Of a stretch of 40,346 nucleotides of DNA, positions 1-22,965 are shown piece after piece. The translations under genes were made by a program, and so were the position numbers. Position 1 is the stretch's first letter. Every line of letters starts with the position of its first letter. The DNA is from an uncultured Brachyspira sp. (GTDB lineage: Bacteria > Spirochaetota > Brachyspiria > Brachyspirales > Brachyspiraceae): contig CALXXQ010000037.1 in the NCBI GenBank assembly GCA_944392715.1, forward strand, positions 1-40,346, given 5' to 3'. The notes beneath the pieces were generated by a model. The model did not search any database. It was not told the origin of the DNA and saw only the letters and a program-made list of their open reading frames with translations.

Positions 1-802
1 ACTCCTTACATAAATTATTTTCGGCATTAGCCTCGCATACTTTAGATTTTCTATTATCAATTATAATACAAAATTCTCCTTTAGTTAGTATACTACCATC
101 TATAAAAAAATCAAGGATATTTTTAGCTTCTGCCCTTATAATTTGCTCAAATTGCTTAGTTAATTCTCTTCCGATAACAATATCCGTTTTTTCTCCAAAT
201 ATGTTAACAATATCTTCTATGCATTCTTTTACTCTATAAACTGACTCATATATTACTATTATCGTTTTTTGAGTATTATATAATTCCTTTAATTGATTTC
301 TTCTTCTTCCAGACTTATTAGAAAGAAATCCAACAAATAAAGTATTTCCTGAAATTCCTGAAACGGAAAGCAGAGAAGTAAAAGCAGATATTCCTCCTAC
401 AGGAACTATTTTTATATTGTTTTCTATAGCTATTTTTATTATGCTTACACCAGGGTCGCTTATACAAGGAGTTCCTGCATCGCTTATAATAGCTGCAGAT
501 TTACCTTTGGCTATTTCCTGGATATATTCATTTATTTTATATTCTGATGAATGACTATGATATGAAAAAAGCTTATTTTTTATATTATAAAAATTAAGGA
601 GTTTTACAGCAACTCTTGTATCTTCTGCCAATATAAAATCAACATTTCTAAGTATTTTAAGAGCCCTTATAGTAATGTCTTCCATATTACCTATAGGAGT
701 TGCAACTACATATATGACATTTTTTTCTATAGCATTTTTATTATTTTCATTATCAATAATTTCTTGTATAAACTCTTCATCTTTTTTTATGATATCATTC
801 AT
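1..802 (-). CDS. rsmI: 16S rRNA (cytidine-2'-O)-methyltransferase RsmI, C-terminus cut by window edge
   Basis: Reading leftward from an ATG at 802-800, this frame stays open to the window edge, so the end of the gene lies outside. RsmI methylates the 2'-OH of C1402 in 16S rRNA with S-adenosylmethionine. The translation shows the family blocks in order: VVATPIGNMEDIT near residue 28, LAEDTR, SYHSHS, the SDAGTPCISDPG loop, GGISAFTSLLSVSGISG, GFLSNKSGRRR, IYESVYR and GRELTKQFEQ. In the usual SDAGTPGISDPG loop, Gly is replaced by Cys. About 17 residues precede the conserved core, which is slightly longer than usual. An AAAGGA ribosome site lies upstream of the start. A second ATG four bases in is out of frame. 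The identification is firm; only completeness is unknown. Confidence 0.95.
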   Translation of the reverse strand, partial: MNDIIKKDEEFIQEIIDNENNKNAIEKNVIYVVATPIGNMEDITIRALKILRNVDFILAEDTRVAVKLLNFYNIKNKLFSYHSHSSEYKINEYIQEIAKGKSAAIISDAGTPCISDPGVSIIKIAIENNIKIVPVGGISAFTSLLSVSGISGNTLFVGFLSNKSGRRRNQLKELYNTQKTIIVIYESVYRVKECIEDIVNIFGEKTDIVIGRELTKQFEQIIRAEAKNILDFFIDGSILTKGEFCIIIDNRKSKVCEANAENNLCKE

Positions 803-878: not shown

Positions 879-894
879 TGTTTCACATGAAACA
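879..894. other. parS-like ParB binding site 1
   Basis: The 16-mer TGTTTCACATGAAACA differs at one position from the widely conserved bacterial parS consensus TGTTTCACGTGAAACA. Its reverse complement is identical to the site at 1377. The match is by eye. The family knowledge is that ParB binds such sites and loads SMC there. Confidence 0.75.
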
Positions 895-1184
895 TTTTTA
901 TCTGTAAAACTATATTGTTTTAGTAAATATTTATTTTGCAGTTAAATATAATTATTATAGTAAAATATTTAATAAAAAATAATATTAGACTTGTTTCAAA
1001 AATAATATATTCATAATTAGTGTTTATTAAAACAATTATAAATTTTGATTCTTTTTTCCGCCGAAAAATGTACTATTATAACAATAAATCATAATTAGCT
1101 AATTTTTTAATAACACATATTATTTATGGTATATCTTCCTTATAAATTAATTTTTTAATATGACTATATTATTATAGAATAAAA

Positions 1185-1200
1185 AGTTTCATGTGAAACA
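1185..1200. other. parS-like ParB binding site 2
   Basis: AGTTTCATGTGAAACA is the same palindrome as the flanking sites except for the first base. It lies about 300 bp from site 1 and 190 bp from site 3. Clustering of three such 16-mers in about 0.5 kb of AT-rich intergenic DNA is unlikely by chance. Confidence 0.72.
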
Positions 1201-1206
1201 TTTTCT

Positions 1207-1290
1207 CGCACGGTTAGAAGATTAATAATATATTTAATATGTTTTTTATAATTTTGCCTTAAATCTAAATTAAGTAAATCGTGCGTTAAA
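1207..1290. repeat. CGCACGG inverted-arm element (copy C1)
   Basis: The left arm CGCACGGTTA at 1207 and the right arm TCGTGCGTTAA at about 1279 are inverted copies separated by about 60 AT-rich bases. Similar arm pairs occur at 19083-19172, 32261-32344 and 37311-37400, so this is a dispersed small repeat rather than a single terminator. Confidence 0.6.
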
Positions 1291-1293
1291 TTT

Positions 1294-1309
1294 GGGGCGG
1301 GAGGGCGGG
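1294..1309 (+). other. G-quadruplex-type motif
   Basis: GGGGCGGGAGGGCGGG has four runs of at least three G separated by single bases, the tightest G4 pattern possible. It stands alone in strongly AT-rich DNA between parS-like sites 2 and 3. It may derive from the G-rich block of the nested palindromic repeat family seen elsewhere in the window. Confidence 0.6.
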
Positions 1310-1376
1310 CTTAATAAAATTTATTTACTAATAAAATTGCTGTTTTTTATGATATATATAAATATTGATTTACCAA

Positions 1377-1392
1377 TGTTTCATGTGAAACA
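1377..1392. other. parS-like ParB binding site 3
   Basis: TGTTTCATGTGAAACA is the exact reverse complement of site 1, so the asymmetric central base pair is inverted relative to it. It lies about 85 bp before the start of the TonB-like gene. Confidence 0.75.
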
Positions 1393-1477: not shown

Positions 1478-2398
1478 ATGAAAGAAAAAATTGAAAGAAT
1501 AAAAATAAAATTAATTAAAAGAAAAGATATAATATTTTCTGTTATAGTTTCTTTTATACTTCATATATTTTTATTCAGCTTTATAAATACATCTATAATG
1601 CAAGACGTATTTGCATATGAGAAGGCTAAACAGGAAGCAGAGGAGAAATCCAAAGAAAATGAATATATGTTCTTGGTGGAAACTCCTGAAGTAGAAGAGG
1701 AAGAAAGTAAAGAAAATACGCCATTTGCATCTGATAAAACTTTAAGATCTAAAGGACAAACAGATGTAAAACCTTCTAAAACTTTTTCCGATACATCAGT
1801 TTTTTCTTTCTTGGGAGATGGAGCAAATAGCCCTATAGTTGAAAGAAGACCTACTGAATATATAAAGCCTAATAATAATCAGCTTCAGCAAAGAGAAAAA
1901 AAAGATCTTGGTAATGAAATATCAAGGGATAATGTAGAAACTTATAAGCCTAAAAATCCTGGTATGAAAGGAGACACTAAAATACCTGCATCATTTGAAG
2001 AAGGTGCAGACAGGGCAGTTGTCTTTTCAAGCGAAACAGGAAGCATACAATTAGGTACAAAAGCTCAGGAATATTTTTGGTATTTTTATGCTTTGGTTGG
2101 TTCTATAAGAGATTCTTGGTATTTAACAATTCCTAATCAGGCTCATTATTTGGGGCTTATAAGAACTGATGAAGTTGAGGTGCTTATTTCTATAGATGAA
2201 GAAGGAAATATAGAATTTGAAAAGTTTTTGAAAACTTCTGCTAATGGTCAAACTAGTCTTGATAATTCATGTTCAAAGGCTATTGAATATGCCAAAAAAC
2301 TAAAGCCCCCTCCACAAGGTTTATGGAATGATTATGCTGAAAATGGCAAGATTTATATACCTTTCAAATTTATATATCAGAATTTTAGTAGAGATTAA
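1478..2398 (+). CDS. TonB/TolA-like envelope-spanning protein
   Basis: The 306-residue protein has a basic N-terminus and one membrane segment at about residues 18-37. A long charged Glu/Lys/Pro-containing periplasmic stretch follows, and then a C-terminal domain from about residue 195. That domain resembles the TonB/TolA C-terminal fold: a VEVLISIDEEGNIEF strand pair, a helix with AIEYAKKLKPPPQG, and a closing IYIPFKFIY strand. Known family members transmit inner-membrane proton-motive force to the outer membrane or link the envelope layers. No ExbB/ExbD genes are adjacent. The start codon has no clear ribosome site, and the parS-like cluster lies immediately upstream. The role is inferred from architecture, and the substrate is unknown. 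Confidence 0.72.
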   Translation: MKEKIERIKIKLIKRKDIIFSVIVSFILHIFLFSFINTSIMQDVFAYEKAKQEAEEKSKENEYMFLVETPEVEEEESKENTPFASDKTLRSKGQTDVKPSKTFSDTSVFSFLGDGANSPIVERRPTEYIKPNNNQLQQREKKDLGNEISRDNVETYKPKNPGMKGDTKIPASFEEGADRAVVFSSETGSIQLGTKAQEYFWYFYALVGSIRDSWYLTIPNQAHYLGLIRTDEVEVLISIDEEGNIEFEKFLKTSANGQTSLDNSCSKAIEYAKKLKPPPQGLWNDYAENGKIYIPFKFIYQNFSRD

Positions 2399-6929: not shown

Positions 6930-8330
6930 ATGAAAAGATATATATTTTTAATTTTATTATTATTTTCAAGTTTACTATTCTCACAGGAAAAAATTAAAGT
7001 AGCAGTTCTTCCTTTCTCTAGTGTTAATGAAGAAGAAGGAGATACAGTATCTTCAATATTTGCCAATGAATTAAGCAAAAGAAAAGTATATACAGTGCTC
7101 ACTAGAAATAGTCAAATGGAAAAAGCTATGAAAGAATTACACTTCCAAAGAAATGGTATGACAGATGAAAATACTATAGCAGAAATAGGGAAGGCTTTAA
7201 ATGCTCAGTATGTTATGGCAGGCAGTATCAGCAAGCTTGGAAGAAATAATACATTAGTAGTAAGTATGATTAATGTAGAAACATTAGAAAATCTTACAGG
7301 CAGCAGCAGGTCTTTTAGAAATATAGAAGATGTTATTCAATATGTACCTCAAATAGTTAATGAGATTACAGGAACTAAAGGCGATTTAAAATACAGCGAA
7401 GTAGTAACAGACAGTAAAAAGTCCAGAAGAGTTATACCAGGCTCAGGTTCACAGGAAGCTATAGACAGAATACTGATGAAAAGGGAAGGACAAACAGGAA
7501 TAAGAGAAATTAAATCTCTTATTACAAGAGGTCTTAATACAGGAATGAGAGAAGAAAAATGGTATAATGGAGGTTATGTACGAGCAAATTCAACAGCATT
7601 GATGTTAGCTGCATATTTTAATTATAATGATTTACTTGAAGCCTTAATTGCTGCAGGTGCTGATATAAACATTAAAAATAAAGATTCTTATACAGCATTA
7701 ACTCATGCTATTTTTGCTAATAATATAGAAGGTGCTGCTATATTGATAGATTCAGGAATAGATTTAACTGCAAGGACAAGCCATAGTTATAATAATGATT
7801 ATTTAAACCTTGCAGCAAAAGAAAATAGATTTGAAATATTAAAATTATTAATAGATGCTGGAATGGATGTGAATATTACTAATGAAGGAGGATATACTCC
7901 ATTGATACACTCTATGGGAAATTATGAAATATTTAAATATTTATTAGAACATAAAGCAGATCCTAATTTAATAACTAAAAATCCTTCTCCAAAATATAAT
8001 ATATCTCCAATAACATATTTAGGAAGTTCTTGCTATTCTAGAGGAATAGATGCTGATAAGTTTAAAATATTAAAACTTTTATTAGAATATGGAGCAGATC
8101 CTGGTATGAGAGGAGGAGATAAAGGTAATACTATATTAATATATATAGTATCATCTTCGGTAAATGAATATACTGTGGAAGCTGTAAAATTATTATTACA
8201 AGCAGGTGCCGATCCTAATGTTGAAAATAATAAAAGAGAAACAGCTTTGAATATTTTGGAATCTAAAGATTACTCCACTAATTATATAGATGAAATAATA
8301 AAAATACTTTTAGAGGCAGGGGCAAGATAA
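6930..8330 (+). CDS. CsgG-like domain fused to ankyrin repeats
   Basis: The 466-residue protein opens with a signal peptide (MKRYIFLILLLFSSLLFS). A CsgG/LpoB/FlgO-like domain covers about residues 21-148: IKVAVLPFSSVNEEEG, then FANELSKRKVYTVLTR, IAEIGKALNAQYVMAGSISKLG and VVSMINVETLENLTG, the classic order for this family. A linker follows. From about residue 218 to the end there are six or so ankyrin repeats, recognisable by TALMLAA, LLEALIAAGADINIKN, LKLLIDAGMDVNITN, LLEYGADPG and LLLQAGADPNVEN. The CsgG part would act in the periplasm or at the outer membrane; the ankyrin part is a protein-binding scaffold. It follows two LPP20-like genes. Fragments of paralogues lie directly downstream, the first starting on the shared TAATG. 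Confidence 0.85.
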   Translation: MKRYIFLILLLFSSLLFSQEKIKVAVLPFSSVNEEEGDTVSSIFANELSKRKVYTVLTRNSQMEKAMKELHFQRNGMTDENTIAEIGKALNAQYVMAGSISKLGRNNTLVVSMINVETLENLTGSSRSFRNIEDVIQYVPQIVNEITGTKGDLKYSEVVTDSKKSRRVIPGSGSQEAIDRILMKREGQTGIREIKSLITRGLNTGMREEKWYNGGYVRANSTALMLAAYFNYNDLLEALIAAGADINIKNKDSYTALTHAIFANNIEGAAILIDSGIDLTARTSHSYNNDYLNLAAKENRFEILKLLIDAGMDVNITNEGGYTPLIHSMGNYEIFKYLLEHKADPNLITKNPSPKYNISPITYLGSSCYSRGIDADKFKILKLLLEYGADPGMRGGDKGNTILIYIVSSSVNEYTVEAVKLLLQAGADPNVENNKRETALNILESKDYSTNYIDEIIKILLEAGAR

Positions 8331-20106: not shown

Positions 20107-22965
20107 ATGTACATAAAGAATCTTAATTTGCATGGATTCAAATCATTTGCCATAGAAACAAATATAGAGTTTAATGAAGGCGTTACTGTTGTACTTGGCC
20201 CTAATGGAATTGGAAAAAGTAATATAGTAGAGGCTTTTCTATGGGTTATGGGTGAGCAGTCTGCAAGCAGATTAAGAATAGATAGTGCTAAAGGCCTTGA
20301 AAGCGTTATATTCCATGGTACTGATACTAGAAAACCTTCCTCACTTGCACAAGTTGCACTCACTTTGGATAATAAATCAAGATGGATTAAAAAATATGAT
20401 ACTGATGAAGTGATAGTTACTCGTAAGTATTATAGAAAAGGATTATCAGAATATTATATCAATGATGAGCAGGTAAGATTAAAAGATATAGTTGATATGT
20501 TTTTAGATACTGGGCTTGGTAAGAATGCTTATTCTGTTATAAAGCAGGGTACAGTTTCAGAAATAGCAAAGCAGAAGCCAGAGGAAAGAAGAAGTATTAT
20601 TGAAAATGCTGCTGGAATAAGTAAATATCTTGAAAGAAGAAGAGAGGCTGCTAAAAAACTTGAAGAGTCAGAAAGAAATCTTGATAATGTTAAAATAGAA
20701 ATAAAGAATGCTGAGAAACATTATAAATCTTTAAAAGAGCAGGCGGCAAGAACTGAAAAATATTATAATCTTAAAGATGAACATAAAAAAATAAATATAA
20801 GCTTAAATGTTAATCAGGTAAAAAAATTAAAAATCACTTTAGAAGAACAGAATAAAAGTCTTGAAGAGCATATTAATAAAAGAGCAGAATTAGAGAAAGA
20901 GCTTCAGGATTTAGATAATCAAAAACAGCAGGAACTTTTAAAATTTGAAGAGACAAGAACATTATCTATAGAACTTGATAAGCAGGTTTCTCTTATAATG
21001 ACAGAACTTACTCATATAGAGAAAATGTCTAATCAATTGAAAAATCAGCTTGATAATACCAGCAAGGAAAAAGAAGAAACCATTAACAGAAAAAATTCAC
21101 TATTAAAAAGAATAGAAGAAGATAAAACTCAAATAGCAGAACTTGAAGAAGAAGTAAAAACTATAGCTGAAAATATAGAAAAGTCTCTAAAAGAACAAGA
21201 AATAGAAGAAACTAATATAGCAAATGAGCAGAATAAAATAGCAAGCTTGAATGATAAAATATCAACTCTCACTCAGGAAAATCAAAATGCTACTTTAAAA
21301 ATAGCTGATGCTAGAGAGAGGCAATTAGAAGTTATAAATAAAATAATCACAGAGATAGATGAAAAGAAAAAAGATGTAATGGGTAATAGCTTCTATCAGA
21401 ATATAGGAAAGCATGAAAGCGATATTGATATAGGATTTAATAATTTACTTAATTCTATAAATATAAAGATGAATACTATAAAAGAATTTGAAGAAGATGG
21501 AGTATTATCAAATTTAAATGAGCTTAGTTATAATTCATTATCAAGCTTTGTTAAGAATTTAGGAGAGAGTTTAGAGACAGAAAAAAAAGATGCATTATTT
21601 TTGCAGGGTATATTTAAAGAGTATACTAAAATAAAAGATCCTTTTGTTGATTTACTTTTTGACAAAGAGGGTACTTATATGCAAAAAGAAGCTATAGATA
21701 AAGAAATAGCAGATTTAGAAAGTTTTATAAAATCTAATATTGAGGCTATTGAAGAAATTAATAATGAAATAAGAATAGCTACAGATAATATTAATAGAGG
21801 CAATTCCAATCTTACTACTTTAACAATAGAGAGAGCAAAATACGAAACTAATAAAAAGGCTTCTGAAGATAGAAAAGAGATGATAATAAAAAGTATGAAG
21901 ATGATAGAAGATGAATTTGCAGCTCTTAATGATAAAATAAATAGATTAGAAGAAGAATATAAAAAGCTTAATGAAGAATATAAAGATAATTCACTTAATT
22001 ATAAAGAATTAGAAAAGAAAAAATCAAAAACAGAAAGCGAATCAAGACATAAGGCTAATGAAATAAAAAAGGCTGAATCTGCATTATCGAATTTTGAAAC
22101 TAGTTTAGCTAAGAGAGTAAAAAAGCTCAATGAGTTAAATGAGAATATTACTAGGGTAGGTGAGAGAATAAATCAAAGTAATGATAAGATAAAAGATATT
22201 TATTCTCATTTCTATGAAAATTATGCTCTTAATTTAAAAGAGTTTGAAGAGAATACTCAAAATCTAATAGATGAAGAATCATATAAAAATAAGCTTAATA
22301 CTATTAATGATAGAATAAAAAATCTTGGTCATATAAATGAAATGGCATTAGATGAATATCAGGAAGCTAAAAATAGATTTGAATTTTTAACAAAGCAAAG
22401 AGAAGATTTAGAAAAATCCAAAGATGAAATATTAAAAATAATAGCCGATGCCAATAAGAAAGCTGGAGAAGATTTCTTAAAAACATTCAATGAAATAAAT
22501 AAGAAATTCTCAGAAACATTTAAAATATTATTCGGCGGAGGAAATGCGGGACTTAAAATACAAAATGAAGAGGATTTATTGAATAGTCCTATTGATATTT
22601 TCGCACAGCCTCCTGGAAAGAAAATGGAAAATATTGTATCTTACTCAGGCGGTGAGCTTACTATGACAGGTCTTGCTTTAGTATTTGCTATATTCTTATA
22701 TAGACCTAGTCCTTTCTGTATACTTGATGAGGTAGATGCGGCACTTGACGGAGCTAATATAATAAGATACAAAAATATGGTTAAAAACTTATCTGACAAA
22801 ACTCAGTTTTTGATTATCACTCATGATGAAGTATCTGCTACTATAGCTGATGCTTATTATGGAATAACTGCTGAAGAGAAAGGAATATCTAAAATATTTA
22901 CTGTAAAAGTAGATAAAGATGGAAAAGTTAATGGCAGTGAAGAAAAGTTAGTAAGTCAGGATTAA
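20107..22965 (+). CDS. smc: SMC chromosome-segregation ATPase, short form
   Basis: The 952-residue condensin-type SMC has an N-terminal ABC half with FKSFA (11-15) and Walker A GPNGIGKSN (31-39). Long coiled coils follow (about 165-400 and 520-790). The C-terminal half has the signature SGGELTMTGLALVFA (from 847), Walker B FCILDEVDAALD (870-881, Asp874/Glu875) and the H-loop ITHDE (His906). SMC dimers compact and segregate DNA after ParB loads them at parS. Bacterial SMCs are usually 1150-1200 residues with a central hinge of about 150 residues. Here the centre (about 410-520) lacks the usual hinge pattern and both arms are short. The signature LTMT differs from the common KALT. An AGGAAAAG ribosome site precedes the ATG. 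Confidence 0.93.
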   Translation: MYIKNLNLHGFKSFAIETNIEFNEGVTVVLGPNGIGKSNIVEAFLWVMGEQSASRLRIDSAKGLESVIFHGTDTRKPSSLAQVALTLDNKSRWIKKYDTDEVIVTRKYYRKGLSEYYINDEQVRLKDIVDMFLDTGLGKNAYSVIKQGTVSEIAKQKPEERRSIIENAAGISKYLERRREAAKKLEESERNLDNVKIEIKNAEKHYKSLKEQAARTEKYYNLKDEHKKINISLNVNQVKKLKITLEEQNKSLEEHINKRAELEKELQDLDNQKQQELLKFEETRTLSIELDKQVSLIMTELTHIEKMSNQLKNQLDNTSKEKEETINRKNSLLKRIEEDKTQIAELEEEVKTIAENIEKSLKEQEIEETNIANEQNKIASLNDKISTLTQENQNATLKIADARERQLEVINKIITEIDEKKKDVMGNSFYQNIGKHESDIDIGFNNLLNSINIKMNTIKEFEEDGVLSNLNELSYNSLSSFVKNLGESLETEKKDALFLQGIFKEYTKIKDPFVDLLFDKEGTYMQKEAIDKEIADLESFIKSNIEAIEEINNEIRIATDNINRGNSNLTTLTIERAKYETNKKASEDRKEMIIKSMKMIEDEFAALNDKINRLEEEYKKLNEEYKDNSLNYKELEKKKSKTESESRHKANEIKKAESALSNFETSLAKRVKKLNELNENITRVGERINQSNDKIKDIYSHFYENYALNLKEFEENTQNLIDEESYKNKLNTINDRIKNLGHINEMALDEYQEAKNRFEFLTKQREDLEKSKDEILKIIADANKKAGEDFLKTFNEINKKFSETFKILFGGGNAGLKIQNEEDLLNSPIDIFAQPPGKKMENIVSYSGGELTMTGLALVFAIFLYRPSPFCILDEVDAALDGANIIRYKNMVKNLSDKTQFLIITHDEVSATIADAYYGITAEEKGISKIFTVKVDKDGKVNGSEEKLVSQD

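Follow-up and report, generated by a model that had tools for sequence, protein, structure and literature searches.

The stretch of DNA considered here (the window; 40,346 bp, contig C37 of the source genome) comes from an uncultured Brachyspira species and raises the question whether a small group of parS-like sites near its beginning is the centromere of the chromosome and lies in the region of the replication origin. The sites are located in a 675-bp spacer (803 to 1477) flanked by two divergent genes. One of them is rsmI (2 to 802, minus strand), which encodes the 16S rRNA (cytidine(1402)-2'-O)-methyltransferase (TIGR00096, 222.5 bits, cut-off 167.9) and runs off the window. The far-side neighbour (1478 to 2398, plus strand) encodes a protein with a marginal TonB_2 domain (PF13103, 22.6 bits, cut-off 22). 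Site 1 (879 to 894) is an exact copy of TGTTTCATGTGAAACA on the minus strand, and its perfect half TGTTTCAC faces rsmI. Site 2 (1185 to 1200, plus strand) reads AGTTTCATGTGAAACA, which differs from TGTTTCATGTGAAACA by one terminal change, and site 3 (1377 to 1392, plus strand) is again exactly TGTTTCATGTGAAACA; the right half of both is the perfect GTGAAACA.

The initial annotation had described three near-identical 16-mers within 514 bp, two of them exact inverse copies and the third with one terminal change, and this description holds. The same is true for the claimed agreement with the parS consensus at 15 or 14 of 16 positions, since recomputation against the canonical parS TGTTTCACGTGAAACA, which a table in PMC7022226 gives for example for Bacillus subtilis, Caulobacter crescentus and Hyphomonas neptunium, returned 15, 14 and 15 for sites 1, 2 and 3. 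The off-consensus CATG centre is found in all three sites as well. That the sites are palindromes is only partly right: they have the form of inverted repeats, but an imperfect one, as seven of the eight pairs match, and each 16-mer therefore has a direction. An intact GTTTCAC half and a perfect half are present in all three sites; each has one perfect half, with the change confined to the other. Allowing up to three mismatches to parS, the window contains six matches (the three sites on both strands), compared to a mean of 0.65 in shuffled windows, and none of 100 shuffled windows reached six. The gene for the chromosome segregation protein SMC (952 aa; 20107 to 22965, plus strand; TIGR02168, 709 bits, cut-off 567) starts 18.7 kb from the sites, in line with the distance of about 19 kb given before. 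Between them, positions 6930 to 8330 code for a 466-aa protein with a CsgG/LpoB-like N-terminal part followed by ankyrin repeats. Overall, we consider it very likely that the sites at 879 to 1392 are the parS centromere of the Brachyspira chromosome and the predicted targets of a single ParB encoded on another contig. Such a candidate centromere is ordinary in kind, while the form of its sites is odd.

A motif search across the source genome (2.85 Mb in 214 contigs, 86% complete), as proposed by the initial annotation, showed that the sites with up to one mismatch form one cluster and are not scattered, since no such site was found outside the cluster in the window. At two mismatches, three further places appear, all on other contigs, and a control with the reversed pattern gave no match in this genome. 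The spacer also contains CGCACG...CGTGCG as an inverted pair, with a G-run behind it (GGGGCGGGAGGGCGGG, 1195 to 1345). A search of the source genome with this stretch returned 50 matches at E-values up to 10, one of which is the query; the two best other copies have E-values of 2.5e-6 and 5.6e-5 and most of the rest are short and weak. Related stretches occur in the same spacer in several relatives, for instance G009, G022 and G024. A role in the centromere or as an origin element was considered and rejected because partial copies lie on many contigs, and the stretch is likely a dispersed intergenic repeat.

The position of the sites is conserved within the genus. Our sample comprised 26 Brachyspira genomes; rsmI was found in 25 of them, and G003 (990 contigs), where it was not found, was dropped from the comparison. 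All 25 genomes with rsmI have parS-like sites directly upstream of this gene. Sites with at most one mismatch to TGTTTCATGTGAAACA occur in 22 of the 26 genomes, in G019 only away from rsmI. A motif-blind count of 10-mers in the 25 spacers put AATGTTTCAC on top (24 of 25), whereas 20 shuffles reached 13 at most; close behind the parS 10-mers follows a near-perfect AT-rich 10-mer, TAATATATAA, in 23 spacers. The genes at the Brachyspira origin are stated in PMC3532143 to vary extensively between species. In contrast, the linkage of rsmI and parS is invariant across the 25 genomes. The outer TG-type sites are directed apart in 15 of the 25 genomes (hand count), a pattern that is explained by descent. 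A parS-like relative, TGTTTCATTTGAAACA, lies away from rsmI in four genomes (G004:C1:1825321, G005:C11:533493, G016:C8:2622781 and G019:C23:19493), and this recurrence is possibly shared by descent.

Regarding the proposed location in the origin-proximal part of the chromosome, the assembly of the source genome is too fragmented for an answer of its own, and the support comes from relatives by skew. In five chromosomes assembled as single contigs, coordinate subtraction places the sites 1.28 (G004), 1.18 (G007), 1.31 (G009), 1.59 (G010) and 0.67 Mb (G011) from dnaA and 0.83, 0.81, 0.90, 0.91 and 1.15 Mb, respectively, from parB. Skew was estimated from sampled pieces of four of them (35 in G011; 21 in G009, 3,304,788 bp; 20 in G004; 21 and then 41 in G010, 3,241,804 bp). 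Because gene strand dominates GC skew in these genomes, as is also stated in PMC3163572, the change point of T-A at four-fold sites was used beside it.

In G011, the GC-skew minimum (1.875 Mb) is 8 kb from parS (1.883 Mb) and the four-fold optimum lies at 1.89-1.90 Mb; placing the change at parS costs 2.2 lnL compared to 44 at dnaA. For G009 the two measures differ: 20 kb separate the GC-skew minimum from parS, whereas the four-fold optimum (80-140 kb) is 65-125 kb away, with losses of 13 lnL at parS and 24 at dnaA. Losses at dnaA are given for these two chromosomes, since this position yielded no fit in G004 and G010. For G004, the GC minimum is 271 kb and the four-fold optimum 56 kb off parS (interval 1.62-2.09 Mb). 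In G010, the first 21 pieces gave a GC minimum at 545 kb, closer to dnaA than to parS, from which it was separated by 1.05 Mb. All 41 pieces together place this minimum at 2.08 Mb (487 kb off parS), and their four-fold optimum is 1.74-1.86 Mb, compared to parS at 1.593 Mb (loss 7.2). The dnaA gene of G010 (at 207 bp) is near the skew maximum, the predicted replication terminus. Thus, by the final skew estimates, the origin is nearer to the parS-like sites than to dnaA in all four sampled relatives. As far as base composition can tell, the sites appear to mark the origin region well in G011, well by one measure in G009 and loosely in G004 and G010.

The published placements of the origin differ. 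The sequence of B. intermedia was rotated to an origin that had been set by skew and was reported to be unlinked to dnaA (PMC3163572); the cluster is some 15 kb away from the first base of G009, and hence from this published origin if the deposited numbering was retained in G009. An origin unlinked from dnaA is also described in PMC3532143. However, the origin was put at dnaA for B. hyodysenteriae in PMC2650404, where an agreeing GC skew is claimed but not shown, and for Brachyspira in PMC2897892. A cluster of DnaA boxes, a criterion for oriC, was sought at the sites in the spacers and in the window and not found: the 1.4 kb preceding rsmI lack TTWTNCACA in each of the 25 genomes, and matches in the window to TTATCCACA within one mismatch are at chance level (13 compared to 12.0).

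It could be argued that the sites are a true parS, but were moved by rearrangement and mark no origin in the source species. Such a case would be compatible with the fragmented source assembly and with G004 and G010, where parS is 56-487 kb from the skew-derived origin, but the close agreement in G011, and in G009 by GC skew, as well as the unbroken neighbourhood of rsmI and parS, speak against it, and we regard such a displacement as improbable. By skew, the claim of an origin-proximal location receives support in the relatives, closely in G011 and G009 (8-20 kb for the GC minimum) and loosely in G004 and G010 (56-487 kb, both measures taken together).

Since the sites lie in a divergent promoter region and some promoter-like hexamers overlap them, they might also be operators of a transcription factor that controls rsmI and the TonB_2-like gene. 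However, promoter-like matches are not above those of shuffles (9 compared to a mean of 13.1), and a TonB_2-type far-side gene is found near rsmI in 19 of the 25 genomes but not in the fetched stretch of the other six, where the sites persist. Moreover, the motif is that of parS itself and the genome has a ParB. Control of the two promoters is for these reasons a very unlikely role of the sites.

A parB gene, whose absence would count against a centromere, is present in the source genome, and each of the 26 genus genomes encodes one ParB above the family cut-off (three of them with weaker second matches). The ParB of the source genome (313 aa, contig C70) starts with MSRKGGLGGQGMNAL and contains the motif GERRFRA. 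Its gene is directly downstream of that of a 254-aa ParA-type ATPase, the best NCBIfam match of which is ParA_partition, below the cut-off. According to PMC7383237, R173 and G201 (Caulobacter numbering), residues tied to parS contact, are conserved in ParB orthologues. We located the parS-contact residues by alignment to the Caulobacter chain: R173, G201, G170, K171, S172, N178 and R204 are kept in all 26 genus ParBs and Q162 in 25, the protein of G025 having H. By this alignment, the source-genome ParB has the DNA-contact residues of the parS class.

One could suspect that the sites are instead targets of a Noc-like nucleoid-occlusion protein and not a centromere, since the best NCBIfam model for this ParB is nucleoid_noc (233.5 compared to a cut-off of 315, and therefore below it) and its PDB matches include Noc chains (E-values from 1.7e-42), although ParB/Spo0J chains match best (3.1e-47). 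We read the top score of the Noc model as a reflection of family overlap. The residues Q173 and R201 of Noc are absent from all 26 genus ParBs, which have R and G instead; besides, the letters of the sites are those of parS and not of NBS, and a parA gene adjoins parB. A role in nucleoid occlusion is accordingly even harder to credit than one as operators. Least of all do we expect transcription terminators or RNA hairpins, since, although T-runs come after the sites and sites 1 and 3 fold better as RNA than shuffles (z -5.7 and -3.6), site 2 folds about as shuffles do (z -0.8), the divergent spacer holds no gene end, terminator-like matches are zero and the window has no Rfam family.

With a ParB centromere as the preferred reading, the unusual form of the sites needs consideration. 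We counted 62 sites upstream of rsmI in the 25 genomes, where sites with three mismatches were admitted only with an intact half (five such) and orthologous sites are not independent. In 57 of the 62, one half is perfect over its 8 bp, and in none are both; 61 keep the GTTTCAC-type heptamer intact in at least one half; both inner heptamers are intact in a single site (G015). The weaker half is TGTTTCAT in 35 sites and GTTTTCAC in 15, and takes rarer forms in the remaining ones. Among the 57 sites with at most two mismatches (hand count), 56 have one perfect 8-bp half and none has two. A perfect half is unavoidable in the 39 sites that carry only one change. Among the 18 sites that carry two, both changes fall within one half in 17, but 11 of these 17 are one recurrent form.

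AT-biased drift at tolerated positions is sufficient to explain the lopsided form, and this is the explanation that we prefer. A bolder reading is that symmetry is actively avoided. In such a symmetry-broken centromere, selection would keep one half perfect and hold the other defective by different changes (C to T at the centre, TG to GT in the outer letters, or G to T), ParB would load weakly or from a fixed side, and origin, dnaA and parAB would come apart on the chromosome. We consider this unlikely.

The initial annotation had also suggested a lineage-specific parS. Indeed, the canonical 16-mer TGTTTCACGTGAAACA was found in none of the 26 genus genomes and none of the 29 of the family, compared to 185 of 392 sampled genomes of the phylum, and the exact TG-centre form is present in 21 of the 26 genus genomes. 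However, it occurs in 47 of the 392 phylum genomes, 26 of them outside the genus, and 40 of the 47 are without the canonical form. Among the matches listed from other phyla are Lachnospiraceae, Levilactobacillus, Streptococcus, Psychrobacter and Campylobacterales, some of which may be due to chance. One Lachnospiraceae genome (L283, MAG RGIG6836) carries five TG-centre sites within about 700 bp in one orientation. The TG-centre form is thus a recurrent variant and not private to Brachyspira. Within the genus, all sites near rsmI in G002, G019, G020 and G021 have a CG centre and an altered end. A ParB residue explaining the TG centre was sought in the aligned block and discarded: none separates these four genomes from the rest, so that no protein change in this block explains the TG centre.

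By analogy with ParABS systems elsewhere, a ParB dimer would read the two half-sites, take up CTP, close into a clamp and slide into the flanking DNA. Loaded ParB would then recruit SMC, in keeping with the loading zone suggested by the initial annotation, and ParA would act on this ParB to move it, with freshly replicated origins being the first to separate. As each site in the window has one perfect half, binding of ParB would rest mostly on this half.

Brachyspira includes animal gut pathogens. In the literature searched, which includes few subscription papers and not the main parS survey (Livny 2007), so that an earlier mention is possible, we found no Brachyspira parS, and within the same coverage neither the 16-mer nor its complement or the 14-bp cores occur. 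A Brachyspira origin without linkage to dnaA is already in print, while parS at this origin apparently is not, as judged from these sources. The genus hereby gains a centromere candidate and, with rsmI-parS, a conserved landmark for an origin that has been placed differently in print. Moreover, with a standard ParB but no symmetric site among those found, Brachyspira would be a natural test of the portion of parS that a ParB dimer needs and of any influence that the orientation of a lopsided site may have.

In comparison with known systems, the candidate resembles the chromosomal parS of ParABS in length, half-site letters, clustering, the presence of ParA and a parS-class ParB, and, by the skew estimates, origin proximity in relatives. 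It differs from canonical parS, since the perfect 16-mer is missing throughout the sampled genus and one half is altered per site. In the window sites the two-fold symmetry is imperfect, but known parS consensuses vary, too. According to PMC7022226, most species encode their par systems near oriC, whereas parB and dnaA of Brachyspira are 0.67-1.6 Mb from the sites in the five chromosomes. Another spirochaete, Borrelia burgdorferi, is described in PMC9712426 to have parS near oriC with ParA and ParB, which it shares with the Brachyspira candidate, and ParB and SMC were enriched at this parS by ChIP-seq. In contrast to Brachyspira, its parA and parB adjoin parS, and a large share of partition is carried out by a further protein, ParZ (PMC9712426). 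For half-parS binding in Pseudomonas aeruginosa and others, PMC7022226 gives a heptamer such as GTTTCAC as the recognised unit. These half-sites are single heptamers present in hundreds, whereas the Brachyspira sites consist of an intact and a nearly intact half and are clustered. The same TG-centre 16-mer is also clustered in a genus of another spirochaete family (g54), where 16 genomes hold this form, three of them together with the canonical one and 13 without it. There, however, a cluster can contain as many as five copies, most of them oriented alike (e.g. G231, G286 and G368).
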